NCBI GenBank assembly: GCA_013694595.1
Contig: JACDCC010000373.1
Span: 1 to 36,100, forward strand
Direction of reading: 5' to 3'
DNA from: Chthoniobacterales bacterium
Lineage (GTDB): Bacteria; Verrucomicrobiota; Verrucomicrobiia; Chthoniobacterales; UBA10450
Length of the DNA: 36,100 nt
Every line of letters starts with the position of its first letter. Within the stretch, counting starts at the first letter, position 1. The position numbers and the translations under genes were made by a program. Below, one piece after another: positions 5,009 to 15,197 of this stretch. The notes under the pieces were generated by a model, which saw nothing but the letters and a program-made list of their open reading frames with translations, made no database searches and was not told the origin of the DNA.

Positions 5009-6433
5009 ATGCCCGACGACGAAAAGCCGCACGCGCCTCCTTCCGGCTATGAGACGCCGTCCTCGCGCCGACCCACCAGTGCGGAAGGCTCGCTCGGGCA
5101 GGTCCGCGAAGGGAAACGCGACCCGTACTCGGCCTTCCGCTTCCGCGCCTTCAGCCTCTACTCGGCAGGCAACCTCATCTCCGTCATCGGGCGGCAGATG
5201 CTGCTGATCTCGGTCGAATGGGAAATCTATGAGCGGACCAACTCTGCAACTGCCCTCGGGCTGGTGGGCCTGGCGATTGCGCTTCCTGTTGTTCTGCTCT
5301 CGCTCCCGGCCGGCCACATTGCCGATCGTTACAATCGGAAAACCATCGTGCTTTGCACGCAGGCGTTGAGCGCCGTCTGCTCCATCGCGCTGGCCTTCGT
5401 CTCGTGGAACCATCTCGCGATGCCGGCGTGGAAATTCTTGCGGAGCGGCAACGACGTTCTCCGCTCGATCGCCAGTGTATTCGAGCGTCAATCCTCTTAC
5501 CAGTTCGACGACCTGTCGTTGCCGTTGATCTACCTGATCCTGCTGATCTCCGCGACCGGCCGCACGTTCGGATGGGCCGCGCGTGCTGCCTATTTCCCGA
5601 AGCTCGTGCCGCGCGACACCTTCGCGAACGCCGTCACCTGGAACAGCAGCATGTTTCAAGTCGGCTCGGTCATTGGCCCGGCCGTCGGCGGATTGCTGCT
5701 CGTGCGGGCAGGGTTCCCGTTCATCTACGTGCTCGATGCGATCTGCGCGCTCTCGTTTTTTCTACTGGTGCTGCCGATCCGCAGTGGCGATCAAGGTGGC
5801 CGCGCGGAGAGCAATCCATGGCAAAGCCTCCTTGCCGGGATGCGGTTCGTGAGGAGCAAAAAGATCATCCTCGCCACGATCACGCTCGACATGGTGGCGG
5901 TGCTGCTCGGCGGCGCGACGGCCTTGCTGCCGATTTTCGCCGATCAGATTTTGCACTCGGGACCCGTGGCGCTCGGATGGATGCGGGCCGCGCCGGGCGT
6001 CGGTGCGTTCGTGATGGCGCTACTCATTGCTTACCTGCCGCCGTTCAGGCAGGCGGGGAAGACGCTGCTCTGGTGCGTCGCGGGCTTCGGGCTGGCGACG
6101 ATTGTCTTTGGCTTGTCGCGCAATCTTTGGCTGTCGCTCGCCATGCTGTTTCTCACCGGAGTGTTCGATAGCGTGAGCGTGGTGATTCGTCACACGTTGG
6201 TTCAACTGCTCACTCCCGATGCCATGCGCGGTCGCATCTCCGCCGTGAATAACATCTTTATCGGCACCTCGAATGAGCTCGGCGCGCTCGAATCGGGGCT
6301 GACAGCCGCCTACTTCGGTCCGGTGCTGTCGGTCGTCGGCGGCGGAATCGGAACGATTCTCGTCGTGCTTGGGGTGGCTAAAATCTGGCCGGAGACGCGC
6401 AAGATCGGCGCGCTCGACAAGAACCTGCGCTAG
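5009..6433 (+). CDS. MFS exporter (MFS_3/EntS-like)
   Basis: This is a 474-residue major facilitator with a hydrophilic N-terminal tail of about 48 residues, then '[17 protein letters not shown]', typical of the MFS_3 (EntS, macrolide-efflux-like) branch. The loop between helices 2 and 3 has the family signature as '[10 protein letters not shown]'. About twelve hydrophobic helices follow. '[19 protein letters not shown]' near the end matches the conserved RGR.sAv segment of this branch. The track starts at GTG 5003. I prefer ATG 5009 because GGGG lies 7 nt upstream of it, while the GTG is almost against it. The stop codon shares a CTAG with the convergent phnW stop. Such proteins export siderophores, drugs or other small molecules. 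Its position next to phosphonate genes is suggestive at most, because it is on the other strand. Confidence 0.85.
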
Positions 6434-7542
6434 CTGACTCGCTGAACGTTCATCTCGGTGAGCACGCGCTCGATCGCCGCGATCAGTCCGTTCACGTCGC
6501 CGACGGAAAGCCGGCCGATCGTGCCAATCCGAAAGCAATCGGCGTGGCTGACTTTCCCCGGATAGATGACGAAACCCCGCTCGGCGAGCCGTCGGTAAAA
6601 TTTGGCGAATTCAAACGCCGCATCTTCCGGAAAACGGAACGACGTGATGATGTCGCTCTGGCATTCAGGCTTTAGATATTCGCGGAAGCCAAGCTGCCGC
6701 ATTCCGGGCAGGAGGGCCTCGCGATTGCGGCGGAATCGTTCCGCGCGAGCTGGCACTCCGCCTTCTTCGCGCAGTTCTGCGAGCGCTTGCGCGAATGCCA
6801 GCAACGCGTGAGTGGGCGGCGTGAAACGGAACTGGCCGTTCGATTCGAGTGCTTCGAACTGCGCTAACAGGTCGAGGCTGACGCTGCGCGCCCATCCGGC
6901 GGATTCCTGCAGCGCGCCGCGACGCGTGATCACAAACGAGAACCCGGGGACGCCTTCGAGGCACTTGTTCGCCGAGGAGACGAGATAGTCGACCGGTAGT
7001 GCCGCCAGATCGAGCGCGACACCGCCGAAGCTGCTCATGGCGTCGACGATGAAGCGGCAGCCGTGTTCGCGCACGACCGCGCCGATCTCGTCGATTGGAT
7101 TGAGGATTCCGGTTGTCGTCTCCAGATGGACTATCGCGACGTGGGTCGGGCGCGGTTGTTGACGGAGTAACCGCCAGACGGTTACGACATTGGGGGACTC
7201 GTCTTCGGGCCAGCGATTGATCGACACGGCGATCTTCAGTCGCTCAGCAATCTGGCGGATGCGCTCGCCGTAGGCGCCGTTCGCCAGCACCAATAATCGA
7301 CCATCCGGCGGGATCACGGACGAGAGCACCGCCTCGATCGCGAACGTGCCGCTCCCCTGCATCGGCACTGCTTCGTAGCCGGCCTCCTTTGAAACGCCAC
7401 CGATGCGCAGCAGCTCACTCCTGATTTCCGCGACGATCCCGATGAACTCGGAATCGCGTGAGCCGACGTCGCGCTGCATCGCTGCCTTGACCTTCGCGCT
7501 GGTCGTCAGCGGCCCCGGAGTGAAGAGCAATGGATCGCTCAT
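6430..7542 (-). CDS. phnW: 2-aminoethylphosphonate-pyruvate transaminase
   Basis: This 370-residue fold-type I PLP aminotransferase has the diagnostic PhnW start '[18 protein letters not shown]', the '[14 protein letters not shown]' phosphate-cup segment, the PLP aspartate in 'VDAMSSFGG' (about 167) and the PLP lysine in '[12 protein letters not shown]' (K193). The enzyme interconverts phosphonoacetaldehyde plus alanine and 2-aminoethylphosphonate (AEP) plus pyruvate. PhnW is often catabolic, paired with the hydrolase PhnX. Here it is third in an operon after pepM and ppd, and no phnX is seen, so the direction is inferred to be biosynthetic (the AepZ role). Its ATG overlaps the stop of ppd by 4 nt (ATGA), implying translational coupling. 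Length is normal and there is no damage. Confidence 0.95.
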
Positions 7543-8687
7543 CGCGCGTTTTCGCGCAGAAAGGCCGAAAAGCGCTCTTTTACCTCGTGCGGTTTCACCG
7601 TCGGCCGGCCAAGCTTTTCCGGCGAACCCGGCCGAATCTTCACGTGCAGCAACGACGGCCCACGACGACCGCGAAGTTCCCGAACGGCTTTACGAATGTC
7701 TTCGCGCGCGTCGACTGCAAAGGCGGAGCGATAGTTCGCCGCTGCCGCAACCTGGGCGAAGCGCACCACCGGCGACGCGGTTCGTTGTCCGCCGGTCGAG
7801 TCGTGCGCTTCGTTGTCCAGGATGATGTGGAGGAAGTTTTCGGGCTGATAAAAGCCGATCGTTGCCAGCGAGCCCATCTTCATGAGAGCGGCCCCATCGC
7901 CGTCGATGACGACCACGGGCTGCCTCGGCAAAGAATGCGCCACGCCGAAGCCGATCGCCGACGCGGTTCCCATCCCGCCCACCACGTAGAGATGATTCGG
8001 CCGATCAGCCACGGTGAAGAGCTCGCGGCCTGTTTTGCCGGTTGTCGCAATGACCGCTTCGTCGCCGTGAAGGGTCGCGAGGATGAGCTTGATCGCTTCG
8101 GTTCGCGTCAGCTGCTCGTCACCCGAAAAGTTCTCGTGGAGATCACTGGCGATGCGCGTCGGGTGATGGTTTCGGGAAAGCTCATGCGGCGCAATCGTGT
8201 CCTTCTGCATCACGAGGGCGAACGGCCGCTTGGTTCGTGTCATGCTCTCCTCCGCCTGCGCCAGGGTCCCCGCGATCTCCGAATCGCTCTGTGGAAATGG
8301 CAGCCACGGAATCTCGAGCGTGTCGAGCAGCTGGTGCATGATGCGGCCCATTTGCTCGTGCTGTGGTTCGTCTTTCACACCTGGCTGGCCGCGCCATGTC
8401 ACGATCAGCAGCGTCGGAATCTGGAATGGGTAATTCAGTGAAGTGAGCGGGTTCACCATGTTTCCCAGGCCTGAGTTCTGGCACATCGTCACTGTCTTTC
8501 GCCCCGCCAGCGCTGCGCCCATCGTGATACCGACTGCCTCGCCCTCGCTGGTGGCGCCGACATAGTCGAGCCGCGGATCGTCGATGACGTAGTTGAGGAA
8601 CGACGTGAAGAACGAGCAGGGGACACCGGAGAACTGTGAGTAGCCGAGGCCGCGCAGTTGGTCGACGACGGAAGCTGCTTCGATCAT
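7539..8687 (-). CDS. ppd: Phosphonopyruvate decarboxylase
   Basis: This 382-residue ThDP enzyme converts phosphonopyruvate to phosphonoacetaldehyde and CO2, the irreversible step that pulls the unfavourable PEP mutase reaction forward. The N-terminal PYR half has '[14 protein letters not shown]' and the catalytic-glutamate segment '[11 protein letters not shown]' (about 45-55). It also has '[16 protein letters not shown]', which is characteristic of phosphonopyruvate and sulfopyruvate decarboxylases. The C-terminal PP half carries the ThDP/Mg signature from '[10 protein letters not shown]' (about 263) to '[12 protein letters not shown]' (about 290). '[10 protein letters not shown]' is the Ppd/ComDE hallmark. 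Sulfopyruvate decarboxylase is the main alternative, but pepM upstream and phnW downstream settle it as Ppd (AepY). A 22-bp-arm inverted repeat fills the whole gap to pepM and ends 2 nt upstream of this start codon. Confidence 0.95.
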
Positions 8688-8747: not shown

Positions 8748-10373
8748 CTAAAACGCCTGGGCGCGGGCAAGATCGTCGAGATCATCCACATCGAGCCAGT
8801 GGCCGGTGATGTAGAGAACCTGCACGCGCTCTCCCTTCGCGACCAGATGGTTTAGCAAATGATCGAAGCGAAGCGCGCGAAAATCTGCGCGAGCGGAAAG
8901 CTCCGTCAGTGCATTTTTCATGACCTCCGATCCGCGGGCAGTGGTTTTGATTAGTCCGATCCATTCGCCATCGATGTCTTCGCGCGGGAGATTGGGACCA
9001 GCTGCAACGAGGAACGCGTCTTCCTCGTCATAGCGCAACGAATACGGCCGTGTCGCGTTCACGTAATCGACGTACCCGGCGCCCCCGTGGCGTCGTTCCC
9101 ACGTCGCATCCACGGCGACGACGATGTCGCCCTGCTCCGTCAGCAGGTTGTTCAGGATGTGTTTGCGAAACAGGATGTCGCCAAAGGAGATGACCACGTC
9201 GTCCTGAAGATGATCGATCGCTTTGGTCAACGACAGCAGCTCGCCAGTCCCTTCGTACTCTTCGTTGTCCACGAACTCGACATCCGCTGCATCCACCTTC
9301 TCCCTCGCGTAACCGCGAATGACCACCACCTGGCGAATCCCCGACGCGCGAAACTGCGCGACGAGCTTATGCAGCAGCGGCGTGCCGCCGATCGAGACCA
9401 TCGCTTTCGGGATGCCAGCCGTGATTTCGCCCATCTCACTGCCGCGGCTGGCTGCGAGGATGATGGCGCGCGCGGAGTCGGGCGTCTTCGGCAGGTAACG
9501 CTCCTCCGCCTCCATCAACTCCTCCGCGTTCTGCAGTCGGAAGACTTCCCGCACCGGCACGATCATGTCTTCGACATTCTGCACCGAGCGTTCCTCGAAG
9601 ATGCGCCGCGTTGTCTGTTGCATGGCTGCGATCGAGCTGCGGACGTTCTGGTTCGCCCAAATGACGATGCTGATGCCCGCCTGCTCGAACACCTCGACCG
9701 GTGTGCTGTAGTAGGTGGTCGGCACGATCACGAGCGGGCAGCGGTTCTGCCACGCCGCCACAAATCCGAGCACCTGATCGGGCGTGGGCTTCTTGCTGTG
9801 GATCAGCAACGCGTCGGCACCCGCGGACTGATACGCCTCCGCACGCCGCAGCATCTCCTCTATTCCCCAACCGGCGATGAATCCTTCCAGCCGCGCGACG
9901 ACGCAGAAATCCGGATCCGCCTGCGCTTCCTTCACCGCTTTGATCTTGCCGGCGAATTCATCGCGATCGGCGAGCGGCTGGCGTTCGCTGTTGATGAACG
10001 AGTTCGTCTTCGGGAAGAGCTTGTCCTCCACGCAGACCGCCGCGACGCCGCGCTGCTCCAGCTTCTTCACCAGCCGGCGCATGTTGTTGAAGTTGCCGTA
10101 GCCGGTATCGGCATCAAGCAGGATCGGGATGCTCGTCGCGTCGGCCATGAACTCGACCACCTCGAGCACTTGCGTCCAGCTGGCTTCGTTGTTGTCGCGC
10201 ACGCCGAGCGCGGCGGAGATCGAGAGCCCGCTCGCCCAGATGCCGCGAAAGCCGGCCTCCTCCACGATGCGCGCGCTGAGGCCATTGTGCGCCTCCATCA
10301 GGAACTCGAGCCGGCCGGAGTTCAACAGGTCGCGAAATTGCGAAGTCTTCTTTGCGATGCACGCCGCGGTCAT
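8748..10373 (-). CDS. pepM: Phosphoenolpyruvate mutase fused to a nucleotidyltransferase domain
   Basis: This 541-residue fusion is the committing enzyme of phosphonate biosynthesis, rearranging PEP to phosphonopyruvate. Residues 10-295 are the PepM domain of the isocitrate lyase superfamily: '[19 protein letters not shown]', 'DADTGYGNF' for metal binding, and the PEP-mutase signature EDKXXXXXNS as '[10 protein letters not shown]' (116-125). The NS end separates true mutases from related hydrolases. Residues 303-541 are a sugar-nucleotidyltransferase-type domain with '[11 protein letters not shown]....GIPKAM' (305-325) and a metal aspartate in 'FGDILF' (about 399). The usual AAGxGxRxG loop reads AASRGSEMG, as I recall for PepM-fused domains. 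Such domains are thought to load CMP onto a phosphonate. It leads the operon pepM-ppd-phnW and is divergent, over 161 bp, from the lipid-type operon. Confidence 0.96.
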
Positions 10374-10534
10374 AGACGAGCGCCCAAGTTACAGCGGCGA
10401 GTGGTTTTTGCATTCATGATCCACGCGGCGTCGGTTACCGATTCCTCGACGACCGAGGAAATCGAGCAGGCCCCTCGCTAAACGCCAGCGTTGACGCCGC
10501 GAGCCTCTCGCAGCTAACTAGGCGCTTCGATAAT
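10374..10534. promoter_or_regulatory. Shared divergent upstream region of the two phosphonate operons
   Basis: This 161-bp gap separates the pepM start (minus) from the oxygenase start (plus), so both operons must be driven from it or nearby. A TTGACG hexamer lies about 45 bp before the plus-strand ATG, but no good -10 element follows at normal spacing. A small inverted repeat, CCTCGACGACCGAGG, is present near 10443. I cannot name a regulator-binding site. Confidence 0.35.
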
Positions 10535-11298
10535 ATGAGCACGACCGCATCTATCTCGATTGACGGCGCCATCCGCGAGGCTGTGCAAAAGCAGGATGAA
10601 GCCGCTCTGCAACGCCGATACATTGGCCAGGACGAATTTCTCGTCGTGGAAGATTTCCTGCCGCCTGAGGTGATGGAAGAATGGGAAGCGCAATTGCCGT
10701 CGCTCGTGCCACGAATCCATCGCAATCACCTCCCGGGTCACAAGAAAGGCGGCAGCGTAGCGTATGACACGGTGGCGTCGATGGCTCCGGCGATCACAGT
10801 GTTTATCACAGTCCGCAGCTGCTCGGGTTGCTGCGGCGCATTGTCGGCGCCGAGATGCAGGAGTGCCCGCCTAACGACCCGCACCGCTGCGCTTTCTACG
10901 CCTACACTGAAGAAGGCGATCACATGGGGTTCCATTACGACACGTCCTACTACAAGGATCGACGCTGGACGCTGCTCGTCGGTTTCAAGGATGACTCGAG
11001 CTCACGTTTGCTCTGCCACCTGCACACGAAGAACCCGGACCGCGAAATCGAGAAGCTCGAACTCAAAATGACTCCAGGCATGCTCGTGCTCTTCAATGGC
11101 GACAAGGTCTATCACTCTGTCTCGCCGGTGAAAGCTGGCGAGACGCGCTACGTGGTTTCGATGCAATTCGTTACCTCCGGCGAGATGAATCCCTTCATAC
11201 GTTTCATCTCCAATATGAAAGACGCCGTCGGCTACTTCGGATTGCGCGGTGTCTTCGGAGCCGGCCAGCGCAAACCCGACGCAAAAGCCGCGCGGTGA
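10535..11298 (+). pseudogene. 2OG-Fe(II) oxygenase-like protein, interrupted by one frameshift
   Basis: The track splits this gene into 10535-11071 and 10828-11298. Read together with one base restored near 10802 ('PAITV' then 'YHSPQLLGLLRRIVG'), it gives a continuous protein of about 254 residues. The second part has the iron-binding pattern of 2-oxoglutarate oxygenases: 'HYDTSYY' (HxD), then a distal His in 'KVYHSVSPV' and the 2OG-binding Arg in 'GETRYVVSMQF'. This is a prolyl-4-hydroxylase-like arrangement. The stop overlaps the next start by 4 nt, so it is the first gene of the five-gene operon. By context it could hydroxylate the phosphonate headgroup or the lipid; this is inference. All iron ligands lie after the lesion. 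The frameshift may be real decay or a sequence error, since everything else about the gene looks intact. Confidence 0.72.
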
Positions 11299-12374
11299 GC
11301 AAGGTGCCCGCCGTCCTGGTGTGTGATGGCGGGACGGGCAACCTCGAGATCGCGGGGCTGACTGTCCTGGATCGCATGGTGGTAGCGTCGCATCGGGCGG
11401 GTTGCGACCCGATTACGATCGTCGCGGAAACGGTGCCGCCGCTGGCGTGCGCGCAGGCACTTGGTATTCGGTTGTCGGTTGTGAAGGGCGCGCCTGCCGG
11501 GGTCCGCGACCCCGGCCACCCCACGCTCACGATCACCGGGGGCGTGCTGGTCGAATCTCGCGATCTCGAACGGGTGATCGCGGCTCGCGGACAGCTCGTC
11601 GCGCCGGATGGTTCGCCGCTGCCGATAAAAATGAACGCAGCCAATCCCCGCCCGGTCGTCGCACTTGGCGCCGCGCACACGATCACCGACGCAGCTTCAG
11701 CGCGTGAGGCGGAGCGGAAGCTTTGGGCATCGCTCGGGAGCAGCGCTGACGGCGTGGTCGATCGGTTTTTCAATCGCCCGCTCGGCCGCGCCGTGTTGAA
11801 GCTTCTCGTTCACACGTCGATCTCGCCGAACGCGGTTTCGATTGCCTCGATCCTGATCGGCGTCGGCGCAGCGCCGTTTTTTGTCGCGGGAGATTTTATC
11901 GTTGGCGCGCTGCTTCTCCAACTCTGCACGATTGTCGATTGCGTGGACGGGGATTTGGCGCGCGCTCTGTTCAAGCAGTCGCAACTCGGCAAATGGCTCG
12001 ATATTGGCGGCGATCAAGTCGTGCACGTCTGCGTCTTTGCCGCGATCGGGCTCGGGGTTGCGCGGGCGAATCCTCAGGTGCCGGCGATAGCGCTCGGCGC
12101 GAGCGCCGCGCTCGGAGTGTTGATTTGTTTCCCGGTGATCATCCGCGGCTTGCGCCGTCCGCCGGAACATCGCGGCTATCTGCTGAGCAAGCTGATGGAC
12201 GCCACCGCCAATCGTGACTTCACAGTTCTGCTACTCGCGCTCGCGTTTGTGGGCCGCATGGATCTGTTCGTCTGGATGGCTGGCATCGGCATCCACCTCT
12301 TCTGGATTGCGCTGCTCGCGCTACAGAGCGCCGGCCGGGTCCGCGCGGCCCCAATTTCGCGCGAGTCACCATGA
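11295..12374 (+). CDS. CDP-alcohol phosphatidyltransferase with degenerate nucleotidyltransferase-like N-terminus
   Basis: This 359-residue protein contains, at residues 215-240, an exact CDP-alcohol phosphatidyltransferase signature: D-x2-DG-x2-AR-x8-G-x3-D-x3-D ('DCVDGDLAR', then G232, D236 and D240). It sits in a membrane domain of several helices (about 165-350). This family moves a phosphoryl-alcohol group from a CMP or CDP carrier to an acceptor alcohol, usually making phospholipids. Residues 1-130 look like a shortened nucleotidyltransferase fold ('GLTVLDRMVVASHRAGCDPITIVAE') without the G-x-G-x-R-x-G loop. The layout recalls IPCT/DIPPS bifunctional enzymes, but here the front domain is probably inactive. 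The start is GTG, overlapping the preceding stop (GTGA). With CMP-AEP as donor it would create a C-P-linked phosphonolipid; this is inference from the neighbouring pepM operon. Confidence 0.9.
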   Translation: MSKVPAVLVCDGGTGNLEIAGLTVLDRMVVASHRAGCDPITIVAETVPPLACAQALGIRLSVVKGAPAGVRDPGHPTLTITGGVLVESRDLERVIAARGQLVAPDGSPLPIKMNAANPRPVVALGAAHTITDAASAREAERKLWASLGSSADGVVDRFFNRPLGRAVLKLLVHTSISPNAVSIASILIGVGAAPFFVAGDFIVGALLLQLCTIVDCVDGDLARALFKQSQLGKWLDIGGDQVVHVCVFAAIGLGVARANPQVPAIALGASAALGVLICFPVIIRGLRRPPEHRGYLLSKLMDATANRDFTVLLLALAFVGRMDLFVWMAGIGIHLFWIALLALQSAGRVRAAPISRESP

Positions 12375-13381
12375 AGCTCACGCTTCGTTGCCTGCTCGCA
12401 GCGGCGGGTCTCGTCCTCTTTGGCTGGTTCGTCTACCGCGCCGGAGTCGGTGAAATTGCGCGTGCCTTTACCAATCTTGGCTGGTGGCTACCCGTCGCGC
12501 TCCTGCCATTTCTGGCGGTCACATTACTCGACACGGTCGGCTGGCGCTTTGCGTTCGGGAGGGAGGGGACACATGGCATCGGGTTTCCGCGGCTGGTCCA
12601 GATTCGGTGGGCGGGCGAATCGATCAACGCGGTCCTGCCTTCTGCGTATATCGGTGGGGAGGCGGTGAAGGTGCATCTGCTGCGCAAGCGCGGGGTTCCT
12701 CCGCTGAACGGCGCTGCGAGTGTCGTTGCTGGCAAAACAGCGCAGGTGCTGGCCCAGGTCACGTTCATCGCGCTCGGTGCCCTGGCAGGAATGGCGAACC
12801 TGCCGTCGGATTCGCCGGCGCGCACTGGAATGTTGGCTGTCACGGGTCTGGCGCTCGCGATCGTTGCCACGCTCTTATGGCTGCAACGACGCGGCATCTT
12901 TACGACGCTCCTAGGGCTTACGAAGAAGCTCGGTCTTCGCATTCGCGCCTTCGCCGACCGGAGCGAGAAGCTGCGGCGACTCGATGACCGGATCTTCGAT
13001 TTCTACCGGAAGGAACCGGGAAGATTCGGGCTGAGTTGTGCCGCATATTTTTGTGGCTGGATGACGGACGCGCTCGAGATCCTGCTCGTGTCACATCTGC
13101 TCGGGATGCCGCTGGAGTGGAGCGAGGCGATTGCGATCGAAGCCTTCATCAGCGTCGCGAAGGCGCTCGGAATTTTCGTGCCGGGTGCGTTGGGCGTGCA
13201 GGAGTCCGGCTTTGTCTTTCTGTTTCTCCTCTTCGCGCTGCCGACCACGCTCGGGGTTTCCTATGCGATTTTTCGTCGCGGCCGCGAGGTAATCTTCGCA
13301 GGCGTCGGCGCCGCGATGCTGTATGCCGAAGGATTGATCTCCGGTGGCAAGCTGACGACGAAGGTGGAGGCGCCGGCATGA
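12371..13381 (+). CDS. YbhN/UPF0104 family membrane protein (HpnL-like, flippase-like)
   Basis: This 336-residue integral membrane protein has about eight hydrophobic segments. It shows the family landmarks of the LPG_synthase_TM/UPF0104 group: 'GWWLPVALLPFLAVTLLDTVGWRFAF' near residue 38 (quoted core 'LLDTVGWRFAF'), 'AVLPSAYIGGEAVKVHLL' (about 93), and 'FVPGALGVQESGFVFL' near 270. The group includes HpnL of hopanoid clusters and the membrane half of lysyl-phosphatidylglycerol synthase, where this part moves lipids across the membrane. No aminoacyl-transferase domain is attached. ATGA overlaps on both sides lock it into the operon. A role in moving the phosphonolipid or its precursor across the inner membrane fits the context but is not proven. 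Confidence 0.85.
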   Translation: MKLTLRCLLAAAGLVLFGWFVYRAGVGEIARAFTNLGWWLPVALLPFLAVTLLDTVGWRFAFGREGTHGIGFPRLVQIRWAGESINAVLPSAYIGGEAVKVHLLRKRGVPPLNGAASVVAGKTAQVLAQVTFIALGALAGMANLPSDSPARTGMLAVTGLALAIVATLLWLQRRGIFTTLLGLTKKLGLRIRAFADRSEKLRRLDDRIFDFYRKEPGRFGLSCAAYFCGWMTDALEILLVSHLLGMPLEWSEAIAIEAFISVAKALGIFVPGALGVQESGFVFLFLLFALPTTLGVSYAIFRRGREVIFAGVGAAMLYAEGLISGGKLTTKVEAPA

Positions 13382-14118
13382 AGGCGATCATCTGTGCAGC
13401 CGGGCGGGGGATGCGGCTGGGCGCCACTTCGCCGAAGGTGCTGCTCGAGTTTGGCGGTCGCACTTTGCTCGAGTGGCACGCGGTTCGATTGCGCGCAGTC
13501 GGCGTGCACGACGTGGTCATCGTCACTGGCCATCTGCACGAGCAAATCACGCGCGTTCTGCCCGCGATCGCCGCGCGTCATGAACTCACGATACGCGAAA
13601 TCGTGAACGAGCGGTTTCGCGAAGGCAGCGTGCTCAGTCTGGCCGCTGCGCTGCCGGAGATCGAAGGCCGTGAGGATCCCATCCTGCTGATGGATGCCGA
13701 TGTGCTTTATCCCGCGCAAATACTCGAACGGCTGATCCAGTCGCCGCATTCGACCGCGCTGCTTCTGGATCGGGAATATTCTACCGCCGATGATGATCCT
13801 GTTCTCGTGCCGGTAAAGAATGGTCGTGCGTGCGAGTTTCAAAAGAAGTGGGCGGGCGAGGCGGAGTTCGTGGGCGAGTCGATTGGCTTCTTCAAGATCG
13901 GGATCAACGACTTGACGATGCTCGCTGAAGAAACGCGCGGACGCAGTGCAGGCGCGGTGGTGCATGACTCTTACGACGACGTGCTGCGGGCGATGGTTTT
14001 GGCGGATCGCTTTGGGTACGTCGACGTAACAGGCATGCCTTGGACGGAGATTGATTTTCCCGATGACGCCCAACGCGCGCGAGACGTGATCCTGCCCGCG
14101 ATCGAAGCACTTCCATGA
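13378..14118 (+). CDS. LicC/PntC-like nucleotidyltransferase (probable CTP:AEP cytidylyltransferase)
   Basis: The track ORF 13036-14118 starts too early. The true start is ATG 13378, overlapping the preceding stop as ATGA, giving 246 residues. It has the full nucleotidyltransferase loop 'CAAGRGMRLGATSPK' (6-20) and the metal aspartates in 'LLMDADVLY' (D106, D108). The C-terminal 'WTEIDFPDD..RA' is typical of phosphocholine cytidylyltransferases (LicC) and their phosphonate relatives. PntC-type enzymes make CMP-AEP from CTP and 2-AEP, the donor required by the phosphatidyltransferase two genes upstream. Other zwitterionic phospho-alcohols such as phosphocholine are possible, but AEP is the one the adjacent operon makes. 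The motifs are intact, in contrast to the degenerate N-domain of 11295-12374. Confidence 0.88.
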   Translation: MKAIICAAGRGMRLGATSPKVLLEFGGRTLLEWHAVRLRAVGVHDVVIVTGHLHEQITRVLPAIAARHELTIREIVNERFREGSVLSLAAALPEIEGREDPILLMDADVLYPAQILERLIQSPHSTALLLDREYSTADDDPVLVPVKNGRACEFQKKWAGEAEFVGESIGFFKIGINDLTMLAEETRGRSAGAVVHDSYDDVLRAMVLADRFGYVDVTGMPWTEIDFPDDAQRARDVILPAIEALP

Positions 14119-15197
14119 TACCGCCGGACATTTCCACCTTCTTTGCCGGGCAACAGGTGCTCGTCACCGGAGCTTCCGGATTTATCGGGTGGCACGTCGC
14201 CGATCTGCTGGTGGCGGCTGGCGCGCGCGTTCGCGCGTTGGTTCGGCCGGCGACGCCCAGAGGCCGGGAAGCGTTCGATTGGATCGAGGGCGACCTGCTC
14301 CGGCGCGATTCGCTGGACGCCGCGCTGCGCGAGTGTCGCTACGTGTTCCATGTCGCCGGCGATTACCGTTTTTGGGCGTGCGATCCGCGGGAGATTTTCG
14401 CGAACAACGTGCAGGGCACAATCAACGTGCTCGCAGCATCGAAAGCGGCTGGCATCGAGAAGATCGTTTACACGAGCACGACCGGCATCCTGGAACGCGG
14501 CACCGCGGAAAACCTGGCGACAGAGTCACGTCTCGCGTCGCCTGCAACGTTCAAGGGACCTTACAAGCGATCGAAATTCGACGCTTTCCACGAAGCGCAA
14601 GCGCGCGCCGACGCGGGATGGCCGATCGTGACGGCGTTACCCACGGCGCCGATCGGGCCGCACGATGTAAAGCCGACGCCGACCGGGATGATCATCGTCC
14701 AATTCCTGAATGGACGCATCCCGATGCTCGCACGGACCGGGCTCAACTTCGTGGACGTGCGACAATGCGCACTCGGGCATCTCCTCGCGATGGTGCGCGG
14801 CGAGCGTGCCGAGCGTTACCTGCTCGGCGGGACGAATCTGTGGCTTGGCGAATTCCTGCAGCAACTGGAGCCATTCGCGGAGCATCGGGCGCCACGATGG
14901 CACGCGCCGCATTGGCTCAGCTATGCGGTGGCATGTGCCAGTGAAACAGCGGCCATGTTTTCCCCGCGCTGGACGCCATTCGTGACGCGCGAATCGGTGC
15001 AGATGTCGCGCGGCCCGCATTTTTCCAGCAACGAAAAGGCGGAACGCGAGCTCGGCTACGCAATGGTGCCGATCACCGATGCAATTCGCGCCGCCGTTGC
15101 GGATTTCGAAGCACGCGGCGTGGTGCGCCGGAGAGCTCCTGGTACGCGCGAGGCGGAGCCGCCGGCCTCTGACCGCAATTCATCGCAGGCCCGCTAG
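14115..15197 (+). CDS. HpnA-like NAD(P)-dependent epimerase/reductase (extended SDR)
   Basis: This 360-residue extended short-chain dehydrogenase has 'VLVTGASGFIGWHVADLL' (GxxGxxG, residues 15-32), a dinucleotide specificity region 'VRALVRPAT', 'YTSTTGI' and the catalytic 'YKRSK' (YxxxK). The segments 'YVFHVAGDYRFWACDP' and 'GPHDVKPTPTGMIIV' closely resemble HpnA, the 'hopanoid-associated sugar epimerase', a family named from context rather than known chemistry. Related SDRs also reduce ketone intermediates in lipid assembly. It is the last gene of the operon (ATGA overlap with 13378-14118), and its stop shares CTAG with the convergent gene. No hopanoid cyclase lies in the window, so a hopanoid role is not supported here. 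Modification of the lipid acceptor or headgroup is the likelier reading. Confidence 0.85.
   Translation: MIPPDISTFFAGQQVLVTGASGFIGWHVADLLVAAGARVRALVRPATPRGREAFDWIEGDLLRRDSLDAALRECRYVFHVAGDYRFWACDPREIFANNVQGTINVLAASKAAGIEKIVYTSTTGILERGTAENLATESRLASPATFKGPYKRSKFDAFHEAQARADAGWPIVTALPTAPIGPHDVKPTPTGMIIVQFLNGRIPMLARTGLNFVDVRQCALGHLLAMVRGERAERYLLGGTNLWLGEFLQQLEPFAEHRAPRWHAPHWLSYAVACASETAAMFSPRWTPFVTRESVQMSRGPHFSSNEKAERELGYAMVPITDAIRAAVADFEARGVVRRRAPGTREAEPPASDRNSSQAR

Follow-up and report, generated by a model that had tools for sequence, protein, structure and literature searches.

The 36,100-nt window analysed here, from a Chthoniobacterales bacterium (contig JACDCC010000373.1), contains a phosphonate locus with three nucleotidyltransferase (NTase)-type domains: one is fused to the phosphoenolpyruvate (PEP) mutase PepM, one is a free enzyme and one forms the N-terminal part of a CDP-alcohol phosphotransferase. 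Gene identities, folds, residue losses, phylogeny and co-occurrence make it probable that the locus serves a 2-aminoethylphosphonate (AEP)-type headgroup, in which the free NTase would be the activating enzyme, the fused domain an accessory of PepM and the third domain catalytically dead. An earlier note on this DNA had named the three domains from the sequence alone. All three are real but not redundant, and the motif strings that it quoted are present in the sequence. The fused and free domains match PF12804, and the third is recognized by profile–profile comparison and by an AlphaFold2 model that matches AF2299. The genes carrying these domains are as follows.

8748–10373, minus strand: PepM (residues 1–295) with a C-terminal NTase-like domain (296–541), 541 amino acids; TIGR02320, EDKxxxxxNS, PF12804 and mapping onto Tde-PntC.
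11295–11735, plus strand: reduced cytidylyltransferase-like domain, N-terminal part of the CDP-alcohol phosphotransferase; hhalign, AlphaFold2 model and Foldseek.
11736–12374, plus strand: transmembrane domain of the CDP-alcohol phosphotransferase; PF01066 (E = 6e-9), complete motif, matches to 4o6m and 4mnd.
13378–14118, plus strand: free NTase, PntC-like and canonical, 246 amino acids; PF12804 (E = 2e-18), PDB matches 2xme and 6pd1, residue mapping.

Active site of the free NTase

The active-site positions of the window NTases were assigned by mapping onto Tde-PntC, the AEP cytidylyltransferase of Treponema denticola, whose structure was solved by Rice et al. 2019 (PMC6697681). These authors assign two residues to the phosphates of the nucleotide, Arg15 (leaving pyrophosphate) and Lys25 (alpha-phosphate), and three to AEP, namely Lys153 (phosphonate) together with Glu104 and Glu196 (amine); the R15A, K25A and K153A variants each have less than 10% activity left. 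The corresponding positions of the free NTase are G9, G11, R13, K20, D106, D108, K156, D200, W222, E224 and D226. The PntC signature GXG(T/S)RX4-8PK is found as AAGRGMRLGATSPK, where G9, G11, R13, P19 and K20 are in place and the T/S position is Met. The metal residues (D108 and E224/D226) and the residues contacting AEP (D106, K156 and D200) are all kept. The counterparts of Glu104 and Glu196 are Asp in both cases (D106 and D200), and Asp also occupies both amine positions in LicC (PMC6697681).

This enzyme, which the note had called LicC/PntC-like, retains the catalytic and AEP-binding positions of PntC. The free NTase resembles PntC (the N-terminal domain of Tde1415, and Ari1348; PMC6697681, PDB entries 6PD1 and 6PD2) in its GxGxRx5PK signature, its metal residues, its counterparts of Glu104, Lys153 and Glu196, and its adjacent AEP genes. 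It differs from Tde1415 in that it is not fused to a transaminase, groups elsewhere in the tree and has Met for Thr/Ser in the signature. Judged from its sequence, the free NTase is the only canonical cytidylyltransferase among the three domains and the strongest candidate for the role of CTP:AEP cytidylyltransferase in the locus.

Comparison of the PepM-fused domains

The PepM half of the fusion is recognized by TIGR02320 over residues 13–284 (382.1 bits against a cut-off of 319.55) and carries the PEP mutase motif EDKXXXXXNS from E116 to S125. The C-terminal half matches PF12804 (NTP_transf_3; E = 4e-16, 60.1 bits against a cut-off of 27), with the best stretch at residues 303–423, and its mapped positions are S309, E313, K323, E378, F397, D399, A453, D504, W526, D528 and D530. 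The PntC residues Arg15, Glu104, Lys153 and Glu196 correspond to E313, F397, A453 and D504, so that neither the PntC signature nor its acceptor residues are found; the signature reads S-x-G-x-E, which is non-canonical. The catalytic lysine (K323) and the metal-site aspartates are kept. The model of the fusion has a pTM of 0.60 with an uncertain domain arrangement, and its first 50 Foldseek matches are all to the PepM barrel, hence silent on the NTase half.

We compared this domain across 80 loci with a full-length PepM-NTase from many phyla, which were drawn from at least 588 pattern matches with a sampling bias towards proteins related to that of the window. The alignment holds 84 fused domains, among which the window, the copy from its own genome and its closest relative are counted more than once, together with 38 separate and four transaminase-fused NTases of the same loci. 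In this alignment, Arg at the Arg15 position occurs in 0/84 fused domains and in 42/42 of the others. The first glycine of the signature is replaced by Ser, Thr or Ala in 83 of the 84 and is Gly in all 42 others, and the Glu104 position holds Tyr or Phe in every fused domain compared with Asp or Glu in 38/42 others. The Glu196 position is unconserved across the fused family, and the position of the metal residue Glu220 is Asp in all aligned fused domains. The Lys25 and Asp106 positions are conserved in all aligned NTases, fused or not. Another 16 fused domains were taken from megaplasmids of Burkholderiaceae, a plasmid of Roseomonas and genomes of Bacteroidota, Spirochaetota, Bacillota and Verrucomicrobiota; all of them lack GxGxR, and in three (L110, L116 and L117) Pro-Lys is lost as well. 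These E-values and residue counts establish homology and the loss of known functional residues and are not proof of inactivity.

Other parts of the pocket are strongly conserved. Among 61 non-redundant fused domains, four residues do not vary (Lys323, Asp399, Trp526 and Asp528) and three hardly do (Glu378, Thr376 and Asn370). The Arg15 position is variable (41 Glu, then Ala, Ser, Gln and others) and ranks 107th of 244 in conservation. In a tree calculated without the signature columns (a short search with SH-aLRT support only), all 61 fused domains lie on one side of a single branch with an SH-aLRT value of 99. On this evidence from sequences, the fused domains are an ancient, separate subfamily of the NTase fold that extends across many phyla.

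Three other accounts of the residue pattern were ruled out. A recent duplication within the locus disagrees with the tree, in which the fused and free domains are separate old lineages. Random decay of one gene copy is not compatible with key substitutions common to 84 fused domains of many phyla, nor with the invariance of other pocket residues. Finally, the fused domain does not keep the Arg where a second NTase is absent, since the Nitrospira loci with no second NTase in their flanks still lack it.

The site of the fused domain, with a metal/lysine core and no pyrophosphate clamp, would fit either a ligand-binding accessory or an enzyme acting on another substrate. We favour the accessory role with modest confidence. 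An active transferase that uses phosphonopyruvate or phosphonoacetaldehyde, or a nucleotide donor not needing the Arg, is rather unlikely, although the invariant pocket residues would suit it and the presence of the fused domain in genomes with no transaminase or second NTase nearby would point to an intermediate common to PepM pathways. Against it, the Arg15 position has no one fixed replacement, which looks like a loss and not a swap, and Pro-Lys is lost too in the three divergent fusions mentioned above. Within the accessory role, we tentatively consider that the MobA-like domain found on about a third of PEP mutases may not be a nucleotidyltransferase of the usual kind but a fold put to a new use, in which it would sense a nucleotide or (CMP-)phosphonate and thereby control or stabilize PepM; if this is true, the published view of PepM fusions as 'nucleotidyl activation' would need revision. 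Nearly all natural phosphonates are reached through PEP mutase, and if the fused domain cannot perform canonical nucleotidyl transfer, predictions of pathways in which it is taken for the activating enzyme would be wrong. The present locus illustrates how the true activating enzyme can be picked among look-alikes by a handful of residues.

The PepM-NTase fusion and this type of locus are already known. Of the Ppm enzymes, 33% are fusions with PF12804 (PMC6697681); these likewise combine a PEP mutase with a MobA-like domain and have a second NTase in the cluster. That paper reads the fusion as a coupling of two catalytic activities, whereas here the fused domains lack, across the family, the Arg that is essential in PntC. 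A report of this family-wide loss was found neither in the sections of PMC6697681 consulted nor in further literature searches. Fom1 is also a PEP mutase fused to a nucleotidyltransferase; however, its cytidylyltransferase is a PF01467 domain at the opposite, N-terminal end and is active on 2-hydroxyethylphosphonate (PMC6697681).

The third domain and the CDP-alcohol phosphotransferase

The third domain comprises residues 1 to ~147 of the protein encoded at 11295–12374 on the plus strand, and no Pfam match was found for it. Profile–profile alignment (hhalign) against the free NTases gave a probability of 93.6% (E = 2e-7) and, in a rerun, 95%; the rerun against the fused NTases gave 83%, and for six control profiles of unrelated families the probability did not exceed 2.4%. 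Another NTase profile, built mostly from fused copies, gave only 13.7%, so the match depends on the NTase alignment used. The AlphaFold2 model of the transferase (mean pLDDT 89.8, pTM 0.82) matches AF2299 best, with Foldseek TM values of 0.75–0.77 to 4o6m_A and 4o6n_A over the whole chain. In this model, as in fused transferases of the AF2299 type, a cytidylyltransferase-like fold at the N-terminus is packed on the transmembrane domain. Such N-terminal domains are present in AF2299 and AfDIPP synthase (PMC4634129), and these two enzymes (4O6M, 4MND) are the top Foldseek matches of the window protein. They are archaeal, however, and belong to CDP-glycerol/CDP-inositol chemistry, whereas the window domain is about 150 amino acids long, motif-less and located in a bacterial AEP locus.

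The third domain has lost the GxGxR...PK loop, and Gly stands in place of the metal Asp. The motif of an active IPCT/DIPPS enzyme is thus missing, and 'shortened, motif-less', as the domain had been called, is an accurate description. The class I CDP-alcohol phosphotransferase motif D-x2-DG-x2-AR-x8-G-x3-D-x3-D is complete (D215 to D240), and its residues are invariant in 11 sequences. We read the third domain as a catalytically dead module with a cytidylyltransferase-like fold, a structural remnant that would pack on the transferase as in AF2299. A regulatory nucleotide-binding domain seems unlikely. It would agree with the conservation of the domain, whose mean pairwise identity among 10 Verrucomicrobia homologues is 43% (55% in the transmembrane domain), and with the invariance of Arg27 and Arg34, but the whole phosphate-binding loop is missing. 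Moreover, transferases of other phyla, including that of Mycetohabitans with the same operon, do not have the domain, which suggests that it is dispensable for the chemistry.

Locus context and co-occurrence

The neighbouring genes are listed below. A divergent promoter region separates the minus-strand PepM-NTase, Ppd and transaminase genes from the plus-strand genes that run from the oxygenase to the short-chain dehydrogenase/reductase (SDR).

6430–7542, minus strand: AEP transaminase; NF010006 (493 bits) and TIGR02326 (477 bits), both above cut-off.
7539–8687, minus strand: phosphonopyruvate decarboxylase (Ppd); TIGR03297 (432 bits), above cut-off.
10535–11298, plus strand: 2-oxoglutarate (2OG)-Fe(II) oxygenase, possible AEP hydroxylase, with a broken frame; PF13640 (E = 3e-7) on the downstream frame.
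12371–13381, plus strand: LPG_synthase_TM/HpnL-like flippase-type membrane protein; PF03706 (E = 4e-35), HpnL model 174 bits, below the cut-off of 195.65.
14115–15197, plus strand: HpnA-like SDR; TIGR03466 (335 bits), below the cut-off of 367.65.

Of the loci compared, 36 extend for at least 6 kb to either side. Among these, the loci with an AEP transaminase have a second NTase nearby in 17/19 cases, and the loci without one in 4/17 (naive Fisher p ~1e-4, uncorrected for relatedness, the loci without a transaminase being mostly Nitrospira). This split suggests that the canonical NTase follows AEP and that the fused domain follows PepM. The fused domain is also found in genomes with no second NTase nearby; at one Nitrospira locus (L062), no Ppd, transaminase or second NTase was found within 9 kb of PepM-NTase. 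The PepM reaction is unfavourable, and a downstream step is needed to pull it. In the Bacteriovorax loci, a TauD-type oxygenase and a CDP-alcohol phosphotransferase accompany the fused PepM and a separate NTase.

These patterns bear on two further alternatives. The free NTase and the transferase could be a split IPCT/DIPPS-like pair that makes an inositol phosphodiester unrelated to AEP; NF041135 is the best NCBIfam match of both proteins (62 bits each) and their closest PDB entries are IPCT/AF2299. We regard this as improbable, since the scores are far under the 580-bit cut-off, the acceptor positions D106, K156 and D200 of PntC are kept, and the free NTase travels with the AEP transaminase, the same pair occurring in the AEP operons of Mycetohabitans and Bacteriovorax. 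Still less credible are two activated headgroups, with the fused domain activating one phosphonate (e.g. hydroxy-AEP) and the free NTase another: two NTases do share the locus and several loci have an oxygenase able to make a second headgroup, but neither the Arg nor the acceptor-binding positions are kept in the fused domain, fused domains occur independently of an oxygenase (L014 has none and keeps both NTases), and in the window the reading frame of the oxygenase is interrupted.

The earlier note had drawn two activated headgroups from the redundancy, and this finds no support here, as there is one canonical active site and the fused type follows PepM even where no second NTase is near. Its other suggestion, a different role for the PepM-fused copy, survives in part: lacking counterparts of Arg15, Glu104 and Lys153, and with the Glu196 position unconserved, the domain probably does not serve as another AEP cytidylyltransferase, and it may act in channelling or regulation as the note proposed. 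Against its own reading, the note had set the case in which two of the domains would be devoid of metal and nucleotide sites. The outcome is mixed: the third domain lacks the catalytic motif, but the fused domain keeps the Lys and the metal Asp residues.

Proposed pathway

From the gene set we infer the following reactions and order. PepM, Ppd and the transaminase would make AEP, and the oxygenase, where working, would give a 1-hydroxy-AEP headgroup. The free NTase would activate AEP with CTP to form CMP-AEP, from which the CDP-alcohol phosphotransferase would move the phosphonate onto an acceptor alcohol, most likely a lipid, and the flippase-like protein would probably move the product. The PepM-fused domain would act as a nucleotide- or ligand-binding, regulatory or structural accessory of PepM, not as a second AEP cytidylyltransferase. 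Because a free alcohol is lacking in AEP, the only form in which a CDP-alcohol phosphotransferase can use it is the CMP-AEP donor, which supports this order of steps.

For clusters of Nostoc and Burkholderia with these genes, phosphonolipids have been proposed as the product, and hydroxy-AEP is among the abbreviations of that paper (PMC5987646). The Mycetohabitans locus also has the gene set of the window. The Nostoc/Burkholderia cluster (PMC5987646, Fig. 7) and that of Mycetohabitans rhizoxinica share with the window the CDP-alcohol phosphotransferase, 2OG-Fe oxygenase, NTase, pepM, ppd, AEP transaminase and hpnL; however, the gene order differs and the Mycetohabitans transferase has no N-terminal cytidylyltransferase-like domain. 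A hydroxy-AEP lipid from Bdellovibrio stolpii is mentioned as a cited report in PMC8154272.

Three points weigh against this assignment. First, the free NTase lies outside the clade of transaminase-fused, Tde-PntC-like copies and groups with alpha- and gammaproteobacterial and cyanobacterial ones, so that its AEP specificity is deduced from residues and neighbours. Second, Lys323, Asp399, Asp528, Trp526 and Glu378 of the fused domain look like a working ligand site, and the domain may be an enzyme. Third, the lipid acceptor is deduced from the gene set, and lipids are not processed by either AF2299 or AfDIPP synthase (PMC4634129).

Variation among related loci

The window and several of the compared loci come from draft metagenome-assembled genomes (MAGs). 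The oxygenase gene is split over two frames near 10798–10801 in this assembly, and an intact homologue from L018 covers 20–116 and 118–273 in two frames of the window (tblastn). In relatives, the gene is intact (L018 and L027), fragmentary (L015 and L017) or absent (L014 and L022). It seems to be decaying repeatedly across relatives, or the break in the window is an assembly error. In one Bacteriovorax locus (L046), a TauD-type dioxygenase of a different 2OG-Fe family (5782–6711) adjoins the NTase and CDP-alcohol phosphotransferase genes, where others have the PF13640-type oxygenase; it is possibly a non-homologous replacement of the AEP hydroxylase.

A full-length PepM-NTase occurs in one of six congeners (G004) and in 4/338 sampled Verrucomicrobiota genomes, and this patchy spread would suit either repeated loss or horizontal transfer. 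A single MAG, Udaeobacter AEW3, carries on different contigs what seem to be two almost identical copies of the locus (L015 and L016), reflecting either duplication or assembly redundancy. Rhodospirillales and relatives (L060, L077, L080 and L092) have three to four CDP-alcohol phosphotransferase genes per phosphonate locus, some on opposite strands.

The HpnA-like SDR gene also adjoins the free NTase gene in L013/L014 and L049/L060. The window genome has a squalene-hopene cyclase, and the HpnL- and HpnA-like genes of the window both score under their curated cut-offs. On a Roseomonas marmotae plasmid (L098), the AEP cluster adjoins the hopanoid genes hpnH, shc and ispH. A link between phosphonates and hopanoids is possible.

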